A DNA stretch of 20,382 nucleotides from a virus. Positions 7,756-19,234 of this stretch are shown here, piece by piece. The notes below the pieces were generated by a model. It made no database searches. It saw only the letters and a list, made by a program, of their open reading frames with translations, and was not told the DNA's origin. How positions within the stretch are numbered: the stretch's first letter is position 1; the number at the start of each line of letters is the position of its first letter. A program made the position numbers and the translations under genes. The stretch lies in the IMG/VR virus record IMGVR_UViG_3300045797_000025, positions 1 to 20,382 of that record; one strand, given 5' to 3'.

Positions 7756-8418
7756 ATGCTCGATCTCACCAACCAACGATTCGGGATGCTCGTCGCCCTC
7801 AAACGAGTGCCGCTCAAGGACAGCACCTCCGGGTGGCTCTGCCAATGCGACTGCGGAGAGCTATGGCGCGGCCCTACCAATTGCCTGCGCAGCGGTAACA
7901 CAAAGTCGTGCGGATGTCGCCGAGGCGCGGCGACACACGGCCACATGCGTGGCGGGACAGGAACGCCGACATACTCGTCTTGGAGCGCGATGATCTCCCG
8001 CTGCGCCCACCCATCGAACCCCGCCTACACCCACTATAAGAAACTCGGCATCGGGGTATGCGACCGATGGCGCCACGGGGAGGGAGGGAAGGGCGGGTTC
8101 GAGTGCTTCCTCGAGGATATGGGCGAAAGGCCATCGCTAAAACTTACCATCGACCGCCGCGACAACGATGGCCACTACGAACCGGGCAACTGCCGCTGGG
8201 CGACAAAGCGGGTCCAAGCCAACAATCGCCGAACAAATAAGCTGTTTGAATATCAAGGGCGAATGATGACCTTCGCTGACCTCGTGCGTGCGACGGGAGT
8301 GGAAAAGGAGCTTTTGCGCCATCGCCTGTTGCGGGCGGGATGGACCCTCGATGAGGCTATCAATGGGCCAAAGCAGCCGGGGCGGCGACGCGACATGGAG
8401 CGCCCGAAAGCCGCCTAG
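7756..8418 (+). CDS. HNH homing-type endonuclease
   Basis: This 220-aa protein is typical of phage free-standing HNH genes. It begins MLDLTNQRFGMLVALKRV and carries a Cys cluster (C29, C31, C33 with C52, C54: CQCDCG and SCGC) that probably binds zinc. It then shows the THGHMRG...YSSWSAMISRC segment (about 60-83) and the core IDRRDNDGHYEPGNCRWAT (about 132-150). The C-terminus (about 165-203, FEYQGRMMTFADLVRATG... ending LLRAGWTLDEAI) is a helix-turn-helix-like DNA-binding repeat of the kind appended to homing nucleases. The gene stands alone on the plus strand in a minus-strand operon. Its stop shares CTAG with the stop of tail protein A, and its start is 36 bases from that of tail protein B. 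A poor promoter match (TTGCCC, 17 bases, TAATAT at 7744) would give an almost leaderless transcript. Confidence 0.88.
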   Translation: MLDLTNQRFGMLVALKRVPLKDSTSGWLCQCDCGELWRGPTNCLRSGNTKSCGCRRGAATHGHMRGGTGTPTYSSWSAMISRCAHPSNPAYTHYKKLGIGVCDRWRHGEGGKGGFECFLEDMGERPSLKLTIDRRDNDGHYEPGNCRWATKRVQANNRRTNKLFEYQGRMMTFADLVRATGVEKELLRHRLLRAGWTLDEAINGPKQPGRRRDMERPKAA

Positions 8419-10088: not shown

Positions 10089-10949
10089 TTACGCGAGGGC
10101 CGAGCCGTCGTGGGGGACCTGCACGATGCCCTTGGTCTGCAGGAGCTTGGAGCCCATGAAGACCGAGGTGCGCGCCCACGAGTAATCCTGGCGCTTGTGG
10201 TAGTCCGCCATGGCGGTGATCTCGCCGGAATTGACGGCGTGGCCGATGGCCGACCTGTGATAGGCGTAACAGAGCTCGTCGTTGGTCGAGTTTCCGGTGA
10301 TGAGCGGCGTCTCGATCCAGTTGAACCCGCCCCAGCGCATCATCCTCTTGGCGGCCTTCGAGGCGCCGGTCGGGAGGTTGGGCTGCGTCAGGGGCTTCGC
10401 GTCGACCCACTGGACGTTCACGAACTCCTTGATCTGTAGCAGGTAGCCCATGAACCCCGGGGTAATGACGAAGTGCATTTCGTCGATCTCGTCGACCGGG
10501 ACCTGCTGATTCGCGAGTTTGGTCCGCGCCCGGAGCACGAGCGAAAGCGTCGCGGCCTGCGCGGCGCCGGTGTTGTTCGTCGAGGAAGCCATCGCCGACA
10601 GGATGTCGAGGTCGATCGTGCGGTTGATGACCTTCATCGAGGTCTCTTGCATGATCCGCCGGCCGTCGCCTTGCGATGCGAACAGGTTGAACCCGGTGCG
10701 CTGCACGAGGTCGTGCTGTTCCACGAGCGTCGCGGTGTACTGGTTCAGGTTGTCGGTGCGGGGCGGGATCATGCCGTTCACGCCGCGGGTCTGCGCGACG
10801 GCGCCGCCGGAATCGGCGACAAGGAACGTGGCCTGGTTGCCCTTGATGACGGCCTCGGTAACGACGCAGGTCCGCAAAAGGGACTGCCCGACCTCGAAGC
10901 CGGCGATAAACTCTTCTCGATACTGGATCTGGAATGCGGTGTCGGACAC
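10089..10949 (-). CDS. Major capsid protein
   Basis: This 286-aa protein fits the family of podovirus major capsid proteins with an HK97-like fold. It has an N-terminal arm (MSDTAFQIQYREEF), a long mixed region with NQYTATLVEQHDLVQRTGFN (about 68-87), a central helix, and the segments EIDEMHFVITPGFMGYLLQI (about 154-173) and MRWGGFNWIETPLI (about 206-219). It ends with a GHAVNSGEITAMADYHKRQD stretch. It forms the head shell and is expected to be the most abundant virion protein. Gene order scaffold then capsid then small head protein supports it. The start is GTG at 10949, with GGGAG about 6 bases before it. A dedicated promoter and a hairpin leader precede the gene. No cleavable pro-domain is evident. 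Confidence 0.88.
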   Translation of the reverse strand: MSDTAFQIQYREEFIAGFEVGQSLLRTCVVTEAVIKGNQATFLVADSGGAVAQTRGVNGMIPPRTDNLNQYTATLVEQHDLVQRTGFNLFASQGDGRRIMQETSMKVINRTIDLDILSAMASSTNNTGAAQAATLSLVLRARTKLANQQVPVDEIDEMHFVITPGFMGYLLQIKEFVNVQWVDAKPLTQPNLPTGASKAAKRMMRWGGFNWIETPLITGNSTNDELCYAYHRSAIGHAVNSGEITAMADYHKRQDYSWARTSVFMGSKLLQTKGIVQVPHDGSALA

Positions 10950-11075
10950 GGAAATCTCCCGTCGAAAGAGAACTTTTCAGTTCGCTTCGGATCGGGTTTC
11001 CGTGGGGGACGTGGCCGGGTTGCCGGGCTTTGGCCGGGCCGGCGATCGGTCCCTTGAGGGCCTTTCGTCTGCTAT

Positions 11076-11126
11076 GTCACCGCCCCCTCCCGGGCCGTTT
11101 CCGGGTTTCCGGGGAGAGGCGGTAAC
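11076..11126 (-). promoter_or_regulatory. Stem-loop at the 5' end of the capsid transcript
   Basis: Positions 11076-11093 pair with 11109-11126 around a 15-base loop. The 18-position stem has three mismatches and one G-U pair. It begins within a few bases of the start predicted from the promoter at 11130-11158, so the capsid mRNA would open with this hairpin. Such 5' structures commonly protect abundant phage messages from decay. That function is inferred. The remaining ~125 bases to the GTG are GC-rich and contain no convincing open frame. Confidence 0.5.
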
Positions 11127-11129
11127 GGT

Positions 11130-11158
11130 CCTATATGCCGATTTGTTTTCGCTGTCCA
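11130..11158 (-). promoter_or_regulatory. Candidate sigma-70 promoter for the capsid unit
   Basis: On the minus strand TGGACA (11158-11153) is separated by exactly 17 bases from TATAGG (11135-11130). The -35 matches consensus at 5 of 6 positions and the -10 at 4 of 6. The spacer is unusually A-rich for this window. It lies just after the scaffold stop and about 180 bases before the capsid start, a sensible place for boosting capsid over scaffold. Confidence 0.55.
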
Positions 11159-11167
11159 GATAGGGCG

Positions 11168-12214
11168 TCAGCCCCGCGCGCCGGCCGCCGCGATCCGCTC
11201 CTTGAGTCCGACGAGCTCGCGGAATCGAGCCTGCAACCCCTGGGCATCGTTCCCCTTCCAATACTTGCTTTCGCGGTCGCGCATGAGGCCCTGCAGGGTG
11301 GCGTATTCGGCCTCGACGGTCTGCGCCGCCGCCTGCCCGTTGCCGGGGAGATCGCGCGCGTAGGGGTCGCCCTTCACGAACTCGGCGACGAGCGCGTTGA
11401 GGATGTCCGGGTTGTCGCCGATGCGGCGCCCGTCCGGCCCGCGCGCGGTCATGATGGTCGCGTAGGCGCCGTCGTAGCGGTCGAAGACGGTCTTGAGGAA
11501 GTTCTGGTTCTTGGTGGTCTCGCCGCCCCACAACTCGCGCAGCTTCTGGCTCGCGGCCTGGGCGTTCGTGGCGTCGCTCTCGTTCTGCTGGTCGACGAGC
11601 CGGTCCTGGTACTGCGCCCACCACCCGAGGTTACGTTTGACCTCGTCCGGGGTCGCGTTGTGCTCGTGCGCCCATTTCAGGAAGTCGTCGATGTGCGGCT
11701 TGTCGGTCTCGCCCCAGACGATGCCGTTGCCGAGATTGACGTCGTAGTCCTCCGGCTTCTCGGGGACGCCGTTGGCCTTGCGCCACTCGGCGAGCTCCTC
11801 GGAGGAATAATGGCTCGGGAGCGCCTTCCGGTATTTGCCGCTCGAGAGGTCCTTTTCGAGCGCGAGGAAGGAATCGAGGATCTTGCCCGGGTCGGTGAAG
11901 CGCGCGAGCCGCTCGGCCTTCTTCTTGTCCTCGCCTGCGACGAGCTTGCGCCAGTCCTCCGGCCAGGTGGTCGGCGACGGATCGCCCTTGGGCGCGGAGG
12001 GGTCGGCGGCGCTCGCCGGCGGCGCCTTCGGCGGCGCGGCGCCCTTGTCCCCTTCGACCTTCGGTTCCGCCGGGGGGGTCGATGCGACGACAGGCTCTAC
12101 CGGCGGAGTCGCCAATGTCCCGCCTGCGCCCGTACCCGCGCCCGTTCCGCCGCCGACGCCCATGCCGGGATCGCCGCCGCCGCCCGCTGCGGGCGTGTTA
12201 TCTGGATTTGCCAT
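11168..12214 (-). CDS. Scaffolding (capsid assembly) protein
   Basis: This is a 348-aa soluble protein. The first ~80 residues are Gly, Pro and Ala-rich and surely disordered. The remainder is charged and mostly helical, with WPEDWRKLVAGEDKKKAERL (about 84-103), RFTDPGKILDSFLALEKDL and a region resembling podovirus scaffolds (KALPSHYSSEELAEWRKANG, then PEDYDV). The C-terminal third is helical (LQARFRELVGLKERIAAAG) and would contact capsid. Its job is to guide procapsid assembly and then leave the head. Position immediately upstream of capsid and downstream of portal agrees. The ATG at 12214 has GGAG and AGGCGG upstream. No protease gene is seen nearby. Confidence 0.88.
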   Translation of the reverse strand: MANPDNTPAAGGGGDPGMGVGGGTGAGTGAGGTLATPPVEPVVASTPPAEPKVEGDKGAAPPKAPPASAADPSAPKGDPSPTTWPEDWRKLVAGEDKKKAERLARFTDPGKILDSFLALEKDLSSGKYRKALPSHYSSEELAEWRKANGVPEKPEDYDVNLGNGIVWGETDKPHIDDFLKWAHEHNATPDEVKRNLGWWAQYQDRLVDQQNESDATNAQAASQKLRELWGGETTKNQNFLKTVFDRYDGAYATIMTARGPDGRRIGDNPDILNALVAEFVKGDPYARDLPGNGQAAAQTVEAEYATLQGLMRDRESKYWKGNDAQGLQARFRELVGLKERIAAAGARG

Positions 12215-12276
12215 TGCCGCCTGTCTCCGGTATTCGGATTAGCGACCGTCTGACCAGCGGTTTGGCGACCAAAGCG

Positions 12277-12305
12277 CCCGTCGAGCCCCCGCTCGGCGGG
12301 TTTTT
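12277..12305 (+). terminator. Terminator-like hairpin in plus orientation
   Basis: CCCGTCGAGC (12277-12286) pairs with GCTCGGCGGG (12291-12300), with one T-G wobble, around a CCCC loop. TTTTT follows on the plus strand. Both neighbouring genes are on the minus strand, where the hairpin is followed only by CGCTTTGG. It could stop antisense transcription, act weakly in both directions, or serve as a processing site between the Acb2-like gene and scaffold. Confidence 0.55.
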
Positions 12306-12312
12306 CATTGGG

Positions 12313-12729
12313 TCAGTCCCGCCACGTCGCGGCTTTGACCGCCCACATTTGCGCGGTCTGCGCCTCGGTGATGGCGATGCTGAACAGCCTCATTCGCTCC
12401 GGAGACGGCTTCGGCGCGGCCGCGTCAGCCGGCACATTCGCCGCCGCGCGTTCCGCGTTGCATATGTCGATGATCTCGGCGTACAGCGCCTTGAGCCGGT
12501 CGACCTGCGGGAGAGCGGACGGGTTGAACGAGGCGCCGACCGCCTTCTGTCCGAAGGTCGGCTTCTCGTCGGGCTGGACCTCGTGAATGTGGAAGTCGCA
12601 ACCGCCGTGGACGTAGAAGTCCTCTTTCGTTTTCGGTTCGACAGTGCGCACCGTCTGGCCGCCGGCCATGATGCTCGTCACGCGGACCGGCCAGCCGGCA
12701 TGCGCGTCAATGCTGATTTTGGTGGTCAT
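12313..12729 (-). CDS. Putative Acb2/Tad1-hairpin protein (anti-CBASS sponge candidate) with N-terminal beta domain
   Basis: This 138-aa protein has two parts. Residues 1-55 are beta-rich (AHAGWPVRVTSI, then VEPKTKEDFYVHGGCDFHIHE) and resemble a small domain seen in unassigned phage proteins. Residues about 65-138 read ASFNPSALPQVDRLKALYAE, a low-complexity Ala/Pro turn, and then SPERMRLFSIAITEAQTAQM followed by WAVKAATW. This is two long helices joined by a turn, the pattern of the Acb2/Tad1 hairpin domain. Acb2 proteins bind cyclic di- and trinucleotides and so block CBASS immunity. The MW...VKA end of helix two is the strongest resemblance. It lies in the late morphogenesis operon, 25 bases after the Bbp19-like gene. 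ATG 12729 has AAGGA about 7 bases upstream; longer starts would overlap the previous gene. Sponge activity is inference from family; a virion role is the alternative. Confidence 0.65.
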   Translation of the reverse strand: MTTKISIDAHAGWPVRVTSIMAGGQTVRTVEPKTKEDFYVHGGCDFHIHEVQPDEKPTFGQKAVGASFNPSALPQVDRLKALYAEIIDICNAERAAANVPADAAAPKPSPERMRLFSIAITEAQTAQMWAVKAATWRD

Positions 12730-12754
12730 AGATTTTCCTTCTGTAAACCCCGAC

Positions 12755-13102
12755 TCAGTTGGTCGGCATCTCGTCGTCTTCCAGCCCGGCCGGCGAGAAC
12801 GCGAGCCGCGGCAGCTTCGTGATGACGTCCGGCCCCATCCGGCAGATGCGTGCGATCTGATGCCCGACGAATCGCTTCCCGTCGGCAAAGACGTGGTCCC
12901 GCTCGTCCGGCCGATAGGTCATCGCGTCGACCTCGCAGAGCACATGCAGGATGAAGCGCAGAGCCACGCCCTGTTCGGCCTCGCTGGCGCGCCCTTCCAT
13001 GAGAGCCTTGATCGCCCACGCCTGCTCCTGCGTGACCGACGGGGGCAGGTAGGGGGCATTGGCGGGAACCCTGACGGGAACGGTCTTGAATTTCTCCGCC
13101 AA
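12755..13102 (-). CDS. Bbp19-like small phage protein
   Basis: This 115-aa soluble protein has a disordered, basic N-terminus and a core AEQGVALRFILHVLCEVDAM (about 42-61) followed by DERDHVFADGKRFVGHQIAR (about 66-85). This resembles the Bbp19-type domain found beside the portal gene in BPP-1-like and other podoviruses (hydrophobic helix, short acidic loop, then a GKR/GRR-containing helix). Its function is unknown; an auxiliary head or packaging role is plausible from position. The start is TTG at 13102, immediately after the portal TGA, with GGGAG about 9 bases upstream in the portal end. No ATG occurs in frame before residue 35. Tight spacing suggests coupled translation. Confidence 0.7.
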   Translation of the reverse strand: MAEKFKTVPVRVPANAPYLPPSVTQEQAWAIKALMEGRASEAEQGVALRFILHVLCEVDAMTYRPDERDHVFADGKRFVGHQIARICRMGPDVITKLPRLAFSPAGLEDDEMPTN

Positions 13103-14833
13103 TCACATGCTCCCGCCCTGTTGCGGCTGCTGCGGCGGAACCATGCCGCCCTGCTGCAGCATGTTCGCCGCTGATCCGATCTTGCCGGCGGCGTCCGCGG
13201 CCTGGCTGACAGCGCCGAGCGCCTGTTGCTGGGCCTGCTGCTGCGCCATCATCTGTCGGGACTTCGCCTTGTCGGCGTCGGCCTTCGACTTCGGGAAGAT
13301 CCATGTCGAGGGCGCGCCGGTGCCGATGAGGGCGTCGCGGAAGGCCTCGTCGACATCAACGTCGTGGACGACGGCCGGGTCCATCTGGACCGCGAGCGAG
13401 GTGAGTTGCCCGACGGACGTGAACGCCTGCGCATTGGCGGTCTGCTGCGCCTGCACGAGCGGCGATTCGAACTCGTAGACGATCTCCTGCCCGCGGAGCG
13501 GCTTCGGGATGTCTTTGACCGGGCCGAAGGCGTTCAGCCGGAGGAGCATCGTGAAGGCTTCGTCGCAGAGGGGGGCGCTGTATTCCGACATGATCGGGTC
13601 GAACAGCGGCATGGCGGTCCTGATGAACTCCTGCCACATCTTCTGCGTCTCGTAGGCGGTGCGGACGTGGCTAGTGTCGGGGAACTTGATCTGGTTCAGG
13701 AAGTGCCCGTTGGCGATGATCTCGGCGATTCGCTTCTCGCGATCGACGCCCCACCCGAGGTTCGGGTTGGAGCCGTAGAGGGGCTTCAGCGCCGGGCCCG
13801 TGCGCTCGTCGTACTCCGGGTCGACCCATGAGATGCCGCCGGCGAAGAGGTTGACGCCGCCCTGGATGACGTCGGAGCCGACCGCCTGCATCGGGGGATC
13901 GACGGCCTTCTGCCCGGCCTCGAGCAGCGTGAGCGTGATCTGTTGCAACATGCGGGCGTCGGAGATGTTGATGACGGCCGGCGGGCTGTAGCCGTAGACG
14001 AAGCCGGGCACCGTCACCCAGCGCGGGGGAACGTAGCCGAACTGGTGCTGTCCGACCTCCTCGAGCGTTGTCTGGTGATCGGTGTCGATGATGATGGAAG
14101 AGTGCTTCAAGGCGTAGCCGACGCGGCGGATGCCCTCTTTCCCGGCCTCTGTCTTGGCGACCTTGTCGTCGTATTCGTCGCCCGGCATGACGATGTGCCG
14201 GATCATGACGGGCGTCATCCCGCCGTCCTTCTCCGCGAGCTTCTTGACCTGCTCGCTCGCCGTCTTCGGGAACATCTTGACGAGGTTGCGCGCCGGGAGC
14301 GAGTCCTTGACGTGGATGGTGTCGATGAACCCGTCGGAATTTTCCGCGTAGGCGACGTCGCGCATGTGGCGCGCGCGGAAGGAAAGCCCGGTGAAATCCT
14401 TGTTCGGCCGGACCCGGATGCAGGCGTTGCCGATCGAGGCGAAGCCCCTGTCCGCCTCCTTGGTCGCCCGGTCGAAGCCTGACTTCGGGGCGTAGAAGGC
14501 GCGCCGCATCACGTCGCCGGCATAGTCCATCCAGCGCAGGGAGGTGATGTCCTTGTTGATCTTCTCGATGTTGGTTCGGGGGTGAAACCAGACCTGTCCG
14601 GGCGGTCGCAGCGTGGCGCTGATCGCGTTCGCCAGATCCCGGTTCGCCATCGCCGGGACGCCGGTCATGAGGTGCGAGGCGAATTCCATGCCCATGGATC
14701 GGGTGTACGTGTAGTCGGCGTTCTCCGGGTAGAATTGCTCGGTGATCGCCTGCCACAGCGAGAGGATCGGCGCCTTCTTCGAGAAAAGGGCGTCGCCGAT
14801 CGCGAGGAGGTCTTTGGCGGTCGAGTCCGACAC
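13103..14833 (-). CDS. Portal (head-tail connector) protein, T7 gp8-like
   Basis: This 576-aa protein fits the podovirus head-tail connector family. It has the N-terminal helix with SLWQAITEQFYPENADYTYT, the conserved MANRDLANAISATLRPPGQV and WFHPRT segment, and GFDRATKEADRGFASIGNAC. RRVGYALKHSSIIIDTDHQT and PPRWVTVPGFVYGYSPPAV occur in the clip and stem part, followed by DARMLQQITLTLLEAGQKAV and a helical wing. The C-terminus is Gln/Ala-rich and disordered. The protein forms the 12-subunit ring for DNA entry and exit and docks the terminase. The start is GTG at 14833, preceded by TGAGG at about 5 bases. The frame can be extended to 14911, but that stretch is Arg/Pro-rich, overlaps the upstream gene and lacks family resemblance. 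Confidence 0.92.
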   Translation of the reverse strand: MSDSTAKDLLAIGDALFSKKAPILSLWQAITEQFYPENADYTYTRSMGMEFASHLMTGVPAMANRDLANAISATLRPPGQVWFHPRTNIEKINKDITSLRWMDYAGDVMRRAFYAPKSGFDRATKEADRGFASIGNACIRVRPNKDFTGLSFRARHMRDVAYAENSDGFIDTIHVKDSLPARNLVKMFPKTASEQVKKLAEKDGGMTPVMIRHIVMPGDEYDDKVAKTEAGKEGIRRVGYALKHSSIIIDTDHQTTLEEVGQHQFGYVPPRWVTVPGFVYGYSPPAVINISDARMLQQITLTLLEAGQKAVDPPMQAVGSDVIQGGVNLFAGGISWVDPEYDERTGPALKPLYGSNPNLGWGVDREKRIAEIIANGHFLNQIKFPDTSHVRTAYETQKMWQEFIRTAMPLFDPIMSEYSAPLCDEAFTMLLRLNAFGPVKDIPKPLRGQEIVYEFESPLVQAQQTANAQAFTSVGQLTSLAVQMDPAVVHDVDVDEAFRDALIGTGAPSTWIFPKSKADADKAKSRQMMAQQQAQQQALGAVSQAADAAGKIGSAANMLQQGGMVPPQQPQQGGSM

Positions 14834-14840
14834 CGGGGCC

Positions 14841-15074
14841 TCACTTGTTGGCGTTGCCGAGCGCGCCCGAGGAGAAGGTGTCCGCCGCGGTGCCGGGCGC
14901 CTGCCGCCCAACGACGGTCGAGGCGCGGCCCGCCCGGCGCGTCGCCGTCATGGCCTGGTTGTTCGCGGCCTCGGTGACGGCGGGGGCCTGCTGGTCCGGC
15001 ATGGGGGGCGCGACGGCGACCTGCGGCGTCGCTGGGGTTGCGGCGGCTTGTCCGCCTCCGAAGATTCCTGGCAT
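14841..15074 (-). CDS. Small conserved-type phage protein between terminase and portal
   Basis: This 77-aa protein starts MPGIFGGG, continues with an Ala/Pro/Gln-rich disordered stretch, and then shows RRAGRASTVVGRQ (about 46-58) before a short Ala/Gly/Ser end. Many podoviruses encode a 70-100-residue protein here that combines a Pro/Ala-rich linker with an RxGRxSTxLTG motif; this looks like a divergent member. The function is unknown, probably virion-associated. The ATG at 15074 has GGGGA about 9 bases upstream. The preceding gene's TAG ends directly before this start, and the portal gene begins 7 bases after this one, so all three are probably cotranslated. Confidence 0.7.
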   Translation of the reverse strand: MPGIFGGGQAAATPATPQVAVAPPMPDQQAPAVTEAANNQAMTATRRAGRASTVVGRQAPGTAADTFSSGALGNANK

Positions 15075-15305
15075 CTATCGAGTTCCCCGTTTGATGCTGG
15101 CATATCCAACATTCGCGTGGGATGGCTTCGACCGGGCCGCCGCTTCGGAGTCCGCTATCGCGTCGTTGACGTCTACCAGAAGGTCGGGGTGTATGTCATC
15201 TGGCCCGAGATCGAGCACCATCCCCTTGCCGGGGACGAAAACATAGCGGCCGACCTTCCGGCGGACCGGCTCGTAAAGCTGCTGCTGGGGGTTGTCGGAG
15301 CTCAT
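15075..15305 (-). CDS. Small protein sharing a C-terminal motif with the terminase
   Basis: This is a 76-aa protein. The N-terminal half (YEPVRRKVGRYVFVPGKGMV, about 11-30) looks like a short beta hairpin. The middle (DIHPDLLVDVNDAIADSEAA) is an acidic helix. The C-terminus ends with ANVGYASIKR (64-73), which matches the last residues of the terminase (ANVGYGNIKR) at 8 of 10 positions. The ATG at 15305 overlaps the terminase stop (ATGA), with GGGAG about 5 bases upstream. Function is unknown. The shared tail suggests both proteins touch the same partner or that the gene captured the terminase 3' end. The 306-aa frame extending upstream to 15995 is a shadow of terminase. Confidence 0.7.
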   Translation of the reverse strand: MSSDNPQQQLYEPVRRKVGRYVFVPGKGMVLDLGPDDIHPDLLVDVNDAIADSEAAARSKPSHANVGYASIKRGTR

Positions 15306-16906
15306 GGCGCTCCCACCCTCTTGATGTTGCCGTACCCGACATTCGCGCGCGCCGGCTGGCTGTTGCCGCGGTTCGCCGCCTGCTTCCGTTTCTGCGCCTT
15401 CTCGCCGGGCTCCCAGGCCATGACGACGGCGTCCGCCTTGTCGGGCGATTTCTTGAGCCGCTTCCGGATGTCCTTCTTCGACTCGATCTGGATGTCCCGC
15501 TTGTCCGGGATCAGCATGGGCGCGCCGAGTTCGGCCGCGAGCTCCGGATCGGGCGGCAGGCAGATTTCGGAGCCGCCCGGCTGGTCGGGGCTCAACGCCT
15601 CCCGAAACCGCCACCACGCTTGCGCGCGCCGGTTCTCGAAGCCGCGCCCGGACCCGTCGTTCGCCTTCCCGACGCCTTCCTCGACGCCGTTGAACCGGAG
15701 GTAGGGGGTCGAGTTCGATTTGAAGACCGAGCAGACGTCGCCGCCAAAGCCGCCGCCGACGTCGACCACGATCGGCGCGCCGTCGCGGCGGTGGCGCTCG
15801 GCGAACGCCGCCTGGGTGGGGCCGTCCGGGGCGTCCTTGCCCTTCGCGATCTTCACCTGGTCGAACCAGAACCCGTAGCGCGGCGCCGCCGCCACCCGGT
15901 CGATGCCGCCCTGTCCGACGTCGAGGCCGATCGCCGTCATGCGGAAGCCGGCCGGCGGCCGCGGCGTCCAGCGCGCCTGCGCCGCCTTGATCCACTCCAT
16001 CGGGATCACCTGATCTGGCTTGTCCCGGCGGGCCGCGAAGAAGTTGCCGTCGCGCATGGCGGATCGGTAGGGCTCCTCCATCTGGTCGAGGCGGCTGTCG
16101 TATCCGGTGTTCGCGAGGAAGGGGTTGTTGGCGAGGAACCCCCGGATGAAGGTTCGCGACATCGGCTTGACCGGGCGCTCCTGCCCGGGGAACTGAATCG
16201 GCTCAGGCCCGTCGACCTCGACCTCGTCCCCTTCCGGGTCTCGAGCGTACCAGCGGAGCTCGCCGTCCTTGGCCGGCTTCGGGTGCGTCGGGTCGAGCCA
16301 CGGCCGGAACATGCCGACCAGATATTGCCCGCGTTCGTCGATCGGCGGGTTGCTGGCGAGGACGACTCGGGTCCGCTGCTCGGACTCGATCGAGCGCACC
16401 CACCCGATGTGATAGCGGACGACGTCCTCCGCGACCTGCGCCACCTCGTCCACGGCCTTCAGGTCGAAGGGATGGCCCTGCCATTGGTCCTTCGTCGCGC
16501 CGGTGAACTGGATGAACCGGCCGTCGTCGAGGCGCATGGAGGGCGGGTTCGAGCCGTTGAAGCCCTTTCTGGTCCCGACGAGCCGGATCAAGTCTTCCGT
16601 CAGGGCGTCCAGGTCGTTGTACTGCTGGCGCATGATGAGCGAACGCCGGTGGTCCGAGATCGCCAGCCCCAGGACGAGACCAGATTTCCCGGCGCCGGCG
16701 CTCCCGCCATAGAGCAGGACGTCTGCCGGGGAGAAGAAGGCCGCCATCTGCGGGCCGGCGTTCGGGATGAACTTCGCGTTCGCCGTCGCTGCCCCCGCGG
16801 CCGCGGCGATCGCGTTCCGGTCGGCCTCGGACAGCGATGCGAGCTTCGCAGCGAGCTCGTCCAGCGAGAGGGTCCGCCAGCCTTCGATCTCGGACAGTGA
16901 CGACAA
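15302..16906 (-). CDS. Terminase large subunit
   Basis: This 534-aa protein carries a complete ATPase and nuclease. Walker A is GGSAGAGKS (67-75), Walker B is LKAVDE with D153 and E154, and a coupling motif ASNPP lies at 184-188. The RNase H-like nuclease has candidate metal ligands D329 (IGLDVG), D382 (VVDVGGGFGG) and D492 (DKADAVV). It pumps DNA through the portal and cuts concatemers. The N-terminal helical region (1-45) may contact a small subunit, which is not seen in the window. The C-terminal tail is basic and ends with ANVGYGNIKR. The start is TTG at 16906, preceded by GGGAG at about 6 bases; no ATG in frame fits. It opens the head operon, divergent from the plus-strand spike cassette. 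Confidence 0.93.
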   Translation of the reverse strand: MSSLSEIEGWRTLSLDELAAKLASLSEADRNAIAAAAGAATANAKFIPNAGPQMAAFFSPADVLLYGGSAGAGKSGLVLGLAISDHRRSLIMRQQYNDLDALTEDLIRLVGTRKGFNGSNPPSMRLDDGRFIQFTGATKDQWQGHPFDLKAVDEVAQVAEDVVRYHIGWVRSIESEQRTRVVLASNPPIDERGQYLVGMFRPWLDPTHPKPAKDGELRWYARDPEGDEVEVDGPEPIQFPGQERPVKPMSRTFIRGFLANNPFLANTGYDSRLDQMEEPYRSAMRDGNFFAARRDKPDQVIPMEWIKAAQARWTPRPPAGFRMTAIGLDVGQGGIDRVAAAPRYGFWFDQVKIAKGKDAPDGPTQAAFAERHRRDGAPIVVDVGGGFGGDVCSVFKSNSTPYLRFNGVEEGVGKANDGSGRGFENRRAQAWWRFREALSPDQPGGSEICLPPDPELAAELGAPMLIPDKRDIQIESKKDIRKRLKKSPDKADAVVMAWEPGEKAQKRKQAANRGNSQPARANVGYGNIKRVGAP

Positions 16907-16992: not shown

Positions 16993-17442
16993 ATGAGCCG
17001 CAAACCCCGCCCCTACAATCCCACTGAGGCGATGCTGCACCACCTCGGCCAACGCCTGCTGGCGCTGCGCATCGAGCTCGGCCAGGCCATCAGGGGCGCG
17101 CCGGAACCAGCCCACCGTGGCCTCGGGGCGACGTTCCGACTCGGGCACTCCCCGATGGATCACATCGGCGATCCCAACCCGCAGAACATCGCCGGGTTCG
17201 TGGACATCGCGAATATCCGCGATGCCATCTGCGACGTCGAGCGGCAGATTTCCAGGATCACGGTCGGGCCGTTCGTGGAGCGCGGCCTCGGGCACGGCTT
17301 CCAGATGGGGCGCTCACCGATGGGGGCTCCGGGTCCCGGCATGTATCCGGCGGGGACCGCCCAGCCCGGCATCTTCCCGGCGCGCACCATAGCGGACGAT
17401 CTGGACGACTTCAGGGTCGGGGATTCGGAAATTGGCGGCTGA
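16993..17442 (+). CDS. Unknown 149-aa protein with an internal repeat, upstream of the tailspike
   Basis: I do not recognise this soluble protein. It begins with a basic segment (MSRKPRPYNP), then an amphipathic helix (AMLHHLGQRLLALRIELGQA, about 13-32). An 18-residue unit occurs twice: RGLGATFRLGHSPMDHIG (42-59) and RGLGHGFQMGRSPMGAPG (97-114), identical at 10 positions. Between them lies a second helix (DIANIRDAICDVERQISRI). The end is Pro/Gly-rich and then acidic (ADDLDDF). The ATG at 16993 has GGTGG about 7 bases before it; the frame could extend to 16930. It precedes the tailspike by 16 bases on the same strand, so an adaptor, assembly factor or attachment partner for the spike is possible. 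An antisense frame (16978-17295) is Arg/Pro-rich and less convincing. Confidence 0.65.
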   Translation: MSRKPRPYNPTEAMLHHLGQRLLALRIELGQAIRGAPEPAHRGLGATFRLGHSPMDHIGDPNPQNIAGFVDIANIRDAICDVERQISRITVGPFVERGLGHGFQMGRSPMGAPGPGMYPAGTAQPGIFPARTIADDLDDFRVGDSEIGG

Positions 17443-17458
17443 GAAAGGACCACGCACT

Positions 17459-19234
17459 ATGAGCAGACTGAAAATGATCCTCATGACGACTGCGCTTCTC
17501 GCGCCGGGTGCTGCCTTCGCGCAGGCGACGCCAGAGCAGATTTTTGGCCTCACCGCGCCGCAGAGTTGCCCGGAATGGCCCCTGACGACTGGCTGGGGCC
17601 TGAACTGCGTTCCATCGGTCGCGATGTGGGACAAGCTGTTTTCGAGCAAGGCGGACGGAGCCGCGACGCCAGCTCTCTCGCCGCTGACCTATGGAGCCAA
17701 GGGAGACGGCCTCACGGACGACACAGCGGACGTCCAGACCGCAATGAACGTCGCCGTTTCGGCGGGGATCCCGCTCCTCTTCGACGGGACCCACCTTTAC
17801 AGGATCACGGCCCCGCTCACGGCCTCCGGGAAAATTGACATCGAGGGCACCCTCCCCGGAGGGAATGATGGTGTCAGCAACGCAAAGCTTTGCACAAGTG
17901 GTCTCGTCACGACCTCGAACATCAATCTCCTTGTGCTGACGGGCGAGCAGGCCATTGTTCGCGGCATGTGTCTGCAAATGGCTCCGACCGGCCAAACTGC
18001 GACGGCTGGTACCGCGATCATGCTTGGCGGCCATCTCGGCTATTATCAAGCGCACGACGATATTTCTCACAACACGATTTTTCGGCCGTACTACGGGATC
18101 GAGTTTGGTGGGGACGGTGGTCTCGTTCGAGAGAGTCAGGCAAACGACAACATCATTCGTAGCCCCGGCGCCATCGCCTTATCAGTTGGGAGGGGAACGA
18201 CTGGCGGAAGCACGGTCGGGATCGAACTTGTTAACAACCGGATCGGGTGTGACTACTTCGACGTGAACGGAGTAGGATTTGCTTTCTTCAATGGTGCAGT
18301 AAAGTGGGATGGGACAACCTCAGGCCCGGCCGTCTGCGGGATCAATACCGAGATCATTCCCGGCGCAGGGCAGAACGTCAATGGTGAGTTCACCGGAGTT
18401 TTGGGGGACAGCGCAGGGGATAATGGCGGCGTCACAAACCCCATGGAGCTGTATATCGAGCCGCAGGCGGCGAGCGGAACTGTAAGCTGGTTGTTTTTTC
18501 ATGATGTGTGGGCAGGAGCACTGTCAAATGCAGCCTCGGCAACGAATGTGTATATTGGAAATAAGTTCGCAGGGAATTGCTCAAATATCTCTTTCAACGG
18601 ACTCACTGCCCATTCCAACGGGCATACGCAGACAACGATGATTGATATTGAAGGGTGCTTGAATATACTTATCACAGGAAGTGATATTGATACTTGGACT
18701 GGAACTGTAACAAATGGCATACTGCTCAATGATAACAATGGGCTTGGGCCGAAGTTTGTAAACATATCTGGGAACCGTTTTGGCAATGTCGCTAGTGGGC
18801 ACATGACAAACGGCATCAACCTGCAAACCAACGGATTAAGCGATCTTAACTATCTGACCGTCAGTGGGAACCAGATTGGTGGTGAAGGGTTCATCACAAA
18901 CCCGCTTGTAACGGACCTAATCCAAGGACAGGATAGCTCCTATTGGACGGTGGCTGCGAATGAAGGTGTAGATGATGCCTGCCCGACTATCGCAAGTGCA
19001 TCGTCGATCAATCTATCTGGTTATAGTTGCGTTCACCTTACGGGGACGACACCTGTGACGACATTCTGGCCTGGCTGGTATGGAAGGAAAGTCACCGTTA
19101 TCGCCGATAATGGACTGAGCCTCAACACTGGTGGGTCATACCCTGGGATGTGTGGCAGCAACATTACTATCCCGTCGGCAGGGATGGCTACGTTGCAATA
19201 CAACCATCAAAATGGTTGCTGGATGCACCAGTAA
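17459..19234 (+). CDS. Tailspike with pectate-lyase-like beta-helix and a signal peptide
   Basis: This is a 591-aa protein. Residues 1-21 form a classical Sec signal: basic start (MSRLK), hydrophobic core (MILMTTALLAPGA), and AFA before QATPEQ. Residues about 75-132 (LTYGAKGDGLTDDTADVQTA, then IPLLFDGTHLYRI) are the usual entry of the pectate-lyase-3 or tailspike beta helix. Ser/Asn/Gly-rich helix rungs continue to about 520. The last ~65 residues (TGTTPVTTFWPGWYGRKVTV, then SLNTGGS...TIPSAGMATLQY) resemble a C-terminal module found in phage spikes. It presumably binds or cleaves host surface polysaccharide. ATG 17459 has GAAAGGA about 10 bases upstream; starting at 17432 would add nine residues. 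From about 18050 onward base use is clearly more AT-rich than in any neighbour, suggesting exchange of the receptor-binding part. Confidence 0.85.
   Translation: MSRLKMILMTTALLAPGAAFAQATPEQIFGLTAPQSCPEWPLTTGWGLNCVPSVAMWDKLFSSKADGAATPALSPLTYGAKGDGLTDDTADVQTAMNVAVSAGIPLLFDGTHLYRITAPLTASGKIDIEGTLPGGNDGVSNAKLCTSGLVTTSNINLLVLTGEQAIVRGMCLQMAPTGQTATAGTAIMLGGHLGYYQAHDDISHNTIFRPYYGIEFGGDGGLVRESQANDNIIRSPGAIALSVGRGTTGGSTVGIELVNNRIGCDYFDVNGVGFAFFNGAVKWDGTTSGPAVCGINTEIIPGAGQNVNGEFTGVLGDSAGDNGGVTNPMELYIEPQAASGTVSWLFFHDVWAGALSNAASATNVYIGNKFAGNCSNISFNGLTAHSNGHTQTTMIDIEGCLNILITGSDIDTWTGTVTNGILLNDNNGLGPKFVNISGNRFGNVASGHMTNGINLQTNGLSDLNYLTVSGNQIGGEGFITNPLVTDLIQGQDSSYWTVAANEGVDDACPTIASASSINLSGYSCVHLTGTTPVTTFWPGWYGRKVTVIADNGLSLNTGGSYPGMCGSNITIPSAGMATLQYNHQNGCWMHQ

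Follow-up and report, generated by a model that had tools for sequence, protein, structure and literature searches.

What is a small protein with the helical hairpin of cyclic-nucleotide sponges doing among the head genes of a phage, and is it a sponge at all? The question is raised by a gene at 12313-12729 on the minus strand of IMG/VR virus record IMGVR_UViG_3300045797_000025, whose positions 1 to 20,382 were analyzed here as one window (the whole stretch of 20,382 nucleotides). A first-pass annotation, made from the letters of the window, had proposed that this gene encodes an Acb2-type sponge domain fused to a beta domain and counters host CBASS.

A gene inserted between gp115 and the putative scaffold

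The open reading frame runs from an ATG at 12729 to a stop codon ending at 12313 and encodes 138 amino acids, comprising a beta domain followed by an Acb2/Tad1-type hairpin. The motif AGAAGGA, which resembles a ribosome-binding site, lies six bases before the ATG (12736-12742, minus strand). The gene had been placed inside the head operon, and the families of its neighbors bear this out; the motifs that had been quoted are likewise present in the protein. On the minus strand, the order is terminase (15302-16906), gp77, the portal or head-tail connector (13103-14863; PF12236, E = 2.5e-60), gp115 (12755-13102), the 138-aa gene, a putative scaffold (11168-12214), the major capsid protein (10089-10949; PF19821, E = 4.3e-21; PHROG 3437, E = 8.5e-51), and then the tail genes. 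The names gp77 and gp115 are labels of this analysis, and gp115, the small gene after the portal, has no assigned family. The putative scaffold matches PHROG 3742 (E = 2.5e-30), a family of unknown function, as well as the PHROG 458 protease (E = 9.8e-5); its name comes from its location between the portal and capsid genes of this virus and of the relatives, and not from a named family.

The G+C content of the 138-aa gene (about 0.64-0.65) is similar to that of its flanks, so composition carries no sign of recent foreign origin. A second record, IMGVR_UViG_3300045777_000097 (55.9 kb), contains a 10,404-base locus identical base for base to the corresponding part of the 20,382-base record and was counted as the same virus in all tallies.

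The slot was compared across 17 portal-bearing loci, one of which is this same virus. Homologs of gp115 and of the scaffold were both recognized in nine (L306-L314, with L307 and L308 nearly identical), where they abut with nothing between them; the spacing, measured by first possible start codons, is -11 to +31 bases in these relatives versus 540 in this virus. For the seven loci L315-L321, gp115 was not recognized by profiles; a small ORF of 87-107 aa there lies directly against its neighbor, and the loci gave no hairpin. Because the slot is empty in 9/9 relatives with both borders, the gene was identified as inserted accessory cargo. PF24729, the Acb2/Tad1 hairpin family, was detected in 2/17 portal-bearing records, this virus and G075, but a large share of the records are only short fragments and the absence applies to the slot, not to whole genomes. 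In G075 (L322, 64198-64380), a portal relative, the head genes lie some 46 kb away from a gene for a canonical Acb2 that bears another N-terminal extension. Searches of the phage collection with the scaffold and gp115 gave no relative within the thresholds set.

Several other features were observed in the window. Just beyond the stop codon of the 138-aa gene, a terminator-like stem and T run lies on the plus strand at 12276-12301; for transcripts of the coding strand, its effect would be at most a reduced read-through into the scaffold. An HNH endonuclease gene (7756-8418, plus strand; PHROG 374, E = 7.8e-61) stands between two tail genes on the opposite strand and looks like an inserted homing-type endonuclease. 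A tail fiber or spike-like protein (PHROG 33320, E = 7.6e-30) is encoded at 17432-19234 on the plus strand, opposite to the head/tail operon.

The C-terminal hairpin and its pocket positions

Residues 70-135 (12325-12522, minus strand) match PF24729 in Pfam with E = 2.7e-9 and 37.5 bits, above the curated cut-off of 27, which confirms the hairpin identity first proposed; a genome search with the hairpin family gave 38.8 bits. For comparison, T4 Acb2 (Vs.4, in PDB 7uq2), PaP2 Acb2 (gp26, a chain of PDB 8h2j), and SBSphiJ7 Tad1 scored 71.4, 66.1, and 34.2 bits with the same library. PADLOC and NCBIfam scans gave no match. A phmmer search of the PDB with the 138-aa protein returned unrelated chains only (best E = 0.14) and no Acb2 chain. 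When the profile of a 40-row alignment, A5, was run against PDB sequences, Acb2 was the top match of seven (E = 0.0024), with Vs.4 in third place (0.026) and Tad1 in sixth (1.5). The profile also matched the Acb2 alignment at 99.7%, but since A5 includes two canonical Acb2 hairpins (of its 40 rows, just three are fused and three are hairpin-only), these Acb2 matches are not independent. A5 had replaced a mixed alignment, A4, in which stand-alone N-domains were misplaced. In profile comparison, the clean subfamily alignment A9 gave 36.9% with Acb2 and 7.9% with Tad1; true Tad1 and Acb2 profiles reach only 70.8% with each other, so low values are usual for hairpins this short.

With A5 as input, AlphaFold gave a monomer model with a pLDDT of 89.4 and a pTM of 0.52 (a first run from the single sequence, at pLDDT 43, was unusable). 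Five strands at residues 3-8, 15-21, 24-30, 35-40, and 45-50 are followed by a loose, low-confidence linker (59-66) and two long helices (74-98 and 110-134). The separate N-terminal beta domain and the two-helix C-terminal part described earlier are both found in the model, with two corrections: ASFNP, which had been counted as part of helix 1, forms the loop preceding it, and the beta domain, which had been ended at residue 55, extends to about residue 57. In VIA-align, T4 Acb2 (7uq2) was the top match (Z 7.1 over 80 residues at 4.5 A, residues 58-138) and Acb2 8h2j the fourth (Z 6.4), the places between them going to EncB, an unrelated two-helix protein (Z 6.9 and 6.5); by VIA-align's own rule, these values are ties. 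Foldseek placed 7uq2 at rank 34 (E = 0.62), and none of its PDB or viral matches reached E < 0.001. Due to the tie with an unrelated hairpin, the fold agrees with Acb2 but is little proof alone. No Tad1 chain is among the best 50 VIA-align matches listed, which excludes nothing.

The subfamily alignment, with 27 rows chosen from hairpin loci, has 20 invariant columns. We were able to map the Acb2 pocket positions by three concordant MAFFT modes, using 27 subfamily and 22 Acb2 rows. K80 (PaP2 K26), R114 (PaP2 R67), and M128 (M81) are conserved in 27/27 subfamily rows, as is K132, a Lys at the position of R85; at R114, Arg is also found in 20/22 Acb2 rows, T4 not among them. T121 (T4 T68, PaP2 T74) is a Thr in 26/27 subfamily rows. 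The pocket Tyr (T4 Y8, PaP2 Y11), found in 21/22 Acb2 rows, is replaced by F68, with Phe in 27/27 subfamily rows; the ring is kept and the hydroxyl lost, so that the choice of ligand may differ. The aromatic loop is three residues closer to helix 1 than in Acb2. We take K26 and R67 of PaP2 Acb2 to have roles in the binding pocket. For T4 Acb2, the Y8A variant is reported to be binding-deficient and T68M to lower binding (PMC12657230).

The protein is therefore like Acb2 (PaP2 gp26, T4 Vs.4) in its PF24729 hairpin, in the aligned Lys/Arg/Thr/Met positions, and in being the product of an accessory phage gene; it is unlike Acb2 in its extra beta domain, its Phe for the pocket Tyr, its head-operon site, and a sequence three residues shorter ahead of the conserved Lys.

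Relatives of the hairpin are abundant in viral contigs (276/286 candidate viral stretches, with the best 80 kept). They are also present in 155 phage records, mostly from Flavobacterium phages (146); none of the 155 covers 80% of the query, and the matches listed start at residue 48 or later. Many relatives stand alone at 72-90 aa, for example gp26 of Enterobacter phage EcP1 (PF24729, 37.5 bits). Neighbors were surveyed at 53 distinct hairpin loci, where a simple ORF picker selected the closest larger gene up to 4 kb away. Among the 25 of 42 neighbor families listed, upstream genes (n = 48) included Sak4-like (14), terminase (6), portal (3), and head-tail adaptor (2) genes, and downstream genes (n = 48) included DNA polymerase (7) and scaffold (2 to 4). 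The hairpin gene lies amid small genes in the RNA polymerase to helicase interval of EcP1, between lysis and terminase in Pmp11, directly after terminase in DSL-LC05, and among hypothetical genes near a ssDNA-binding protein in FCV-1.01. Such varied contexts are the behavior of a mobile counter-defense gene and not of a head protein.

The N-terminal beta domain and its partners

Residues 1-57 (12559-12729, minus strand) form a five-stranded beta domain with a family of its own, found in 68 viral contigs including this virus (in one of the 68, L175, the match covers 15 residues only). It is also encoded in 10 genome contigs (Bosea, Rhizobium, Allorhizobium, Phyllobacterium, Luteovulum, Sphingopyxis, and two MAGs), as well as by gp27 of EBPR siphovirus 2 and gp27 of Rhodobacter phage RcKemmy. 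A 6-row alignment, A1, has 16 invariant columns. The domain is made alone, as a protein of 58-77 aa, in 56 of the 64 distinct proteins fetched. The stand-alone proteins (EBPR siphovirus 2, RcKemmy, and the viral-type contigs in Bosea, Rhizobium, and Sphingopyxis) share the beta domain of some 55-60 residues and the motif MTT..A..GWPV with the protein studied here but are mostly single-domain; the Bosea protein, for its part, carries a canonical Acb2 hairpin as a fusion. VIA-align gave the beta domain no clear fold relative, its matches to designed Ig-like proteins and to pVHL having Z values of about 5. An identity with Tad1's own beta sheet was considered and rejected at the level of sequence profiles, where similarity is absent (0.2%).

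PF24729 is present in 8/68 of the beta-domain contigs (7/50 and 1/18). The two domains are fused in three of the eight, namely this virus, L115 (the Bosea contig, 153 aa), and L126 (150 aa). In another three (L120, L156, and L163), the hairpin is the next gene downstream of the beta-domain gene, its ATG overlapping the N-domain stop in L120 and L156 and following three bases later in L163. The genes are apart in the last two (about 30 kb in G027 and about 2 kb in G062). Without this virus, 5/7 are fused or adjacent, for which a rough model of random placement at 1.4 genes/kb gives a chance of about 6e-6. The fused hairpins of L115 and L126 are canonical Acb2 (PF24729, 60.9 and 55.8 bits), a different subfamily, so the fusion in this virus looks independent. 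The beta domain is thus a recurrent phage protein that is sometimes paired with Acb2 hairpins.

A general pairing, seen from the hairpin, was rejected. Within the flanks fetched, the beta domain occurs at 0/79 hairpin loci of this protein's type (L003-L081), and across 39 canonical hairpin loci it was found only at the query's own locus and in a truncated chimera, L224. With pairing this rare on the hairpin side, the association holds from the beta-domain side only. The idea that beta-domain genes mark head operons was likewise abandoned, as their 106 neighbors are mixed; repressors, terminase, thymidylate synthase, and neck genes are among the 25 of 145 families listed.

The L224 chimera (2384-2617) consists of a beta-domain start and, in the same frame, the latter half of a canonical Acb2 hairpin, and is either a deletion product or an assembly artifact. 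Beta domains with other C-terminal parts were observed in L135 (5001-5378, with the same in L137 and L138), L104, L110, and L112. Pfam gave no match above cut-off for L135, L104, or L110, and the C-terminal part of L135 appears helical by eye; these parts are possible further partner modules. A literature search on Acb2 fusions or virion carriage, at the level of titles and with the main Tad1 binding study outside it, gave no beta-domain-hairpin fusion.

Function, timing, and significance

We consider the protein to be probably an Acb2-like cyclic-nucleotide sponge against CBASS-like signaling, a counter-CBASS role that we infer by homology. The C-terminal hairpin would oligomerize in the manner of Acb2 and Tad1, presumably as a hexamer, and the oligomer would bind cyclic di- or trinucleotides made by a CBASS-type system of the host, or possibly by Thoeris or type III CRISPR; with the messenger bound, the suicide effector would stay off. 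The beta domain may act as a partner module, elsewhere separate and sometimes translated just ahead of an Acb2 hairpin, and here part of one chain. To our knowledge, no member of this hairpin subfamily has been tested.

A Tad1 ortholog, with the Tad1 fold made up of beta domain and hairpin together and with the gcADPR of Thoeris as its main ligand, is an unlikely alternative reading of the same architecture. Tad1 (SBSphiJ7, PDB 7uav and 8kbb; phiKZ gp184, PDB 8y6v) likewise has an N-terminal beta part and then a PF24729-type hairpin, and is described as a beta sheet followed by two helices, in the same order, with a C-terminal tail that is part of the gcADPR pocket (PMC12043709). The hairpin motif AIT..MW is common to SBSphiJ7 Tad1 and the 138-aa protein, and A5 gave 59.3% with the Tad1 alignment A10 over the hairpin. 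However, the N-terminal parts are not alignable by profile (0.2% for the beta domain against the Tad1 N-terminus), the protein ends in KAATWRD without the RGVEGT tail conserved in 27 Tad1 rows of A10, and the hairpin subfamily is closer to Acb2 than to Tad1 in the A9 comparison above.

It is improbable that the protein serves the virion or its assembly, keeping the hairpin fold without nucleotide binding. The position between gp115 and the scaffold would suit such a role, as would the portal or terminase genes that adjoin some hairpin genes, but the slot is empty in 9/9 relatives keeping the head operon and hairpin relatives also stand among replication and other non-head genes. Very improbable, finally, is a hairpin-family protein for a different small ligand or a protein, without sponge activity on the known messengers. 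The Phe in place of the pocket Tyr in 27/27 rows and the shift of the aromatic loop toward helix 1 would fit a changed ligand; the Acb2-equivalent Thr, Lys, Arg, and Met, however, are invariant or nearly so, which would be difficult to account for if no ligand site were conserved.

For an Acb2-like sponge, the position of the gene raises the matter of timing. Inserted as accessory cargo between gp115 and the scaffold, it is probably co-transcribed with the late head operon, and this position points to expression late in infection. A search of 10900-13200 for sigma-70-like promoters, a weak test, gave none. In phiKZ, gp184 (the 230-aa chain of PDB 8y6v) is annotated as structural and is related to Tad1 by phmmer (E = 2e-6), despite which the phiKZ genome has no match to PF24729. 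This Tad1 member belongs to the virion and its injection has been demonstrated (PMC10449902); according to a review, the injected protein blocks CBASS and Thoeris (PMC13282480). Virion carriage of a sponge therefore has a precedent. A Tad1 relative was also observed in Lactococcus phage 1706, where orf71 (L326, 2381-2734) is annotated as a structural protein and is perhaps a second virion-borne sponge besides gp184. It is conceivable, though rather unlikely, that the beta domain is a module loading or tethering the Acb2 sponge into the head, from which it would be ejected with the DNA ahead of the rise of the alarm signal; the phage in question is a small one whose portal is of the head-tail-connector type, not a jumbo phage.

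Acb2 and Tad1 sponges are already well known (PMC12043709, PMC10419184, PMC11722364). The hairpin subfamily described here would extend the Acb2 kind of sponge to hundreds of stretches from uncultivated phages, and the analysis brings out a small beta-domain family as a repeated partner of the Acb2 hairpin, either as a neighbor or as a fusion. The clean insertion into the head operon makes the costs and benefits of late expression testable. If the beta domain does widen the range of ligands or load virions, it would show how a stoichiometric counter-defense arrives in time.
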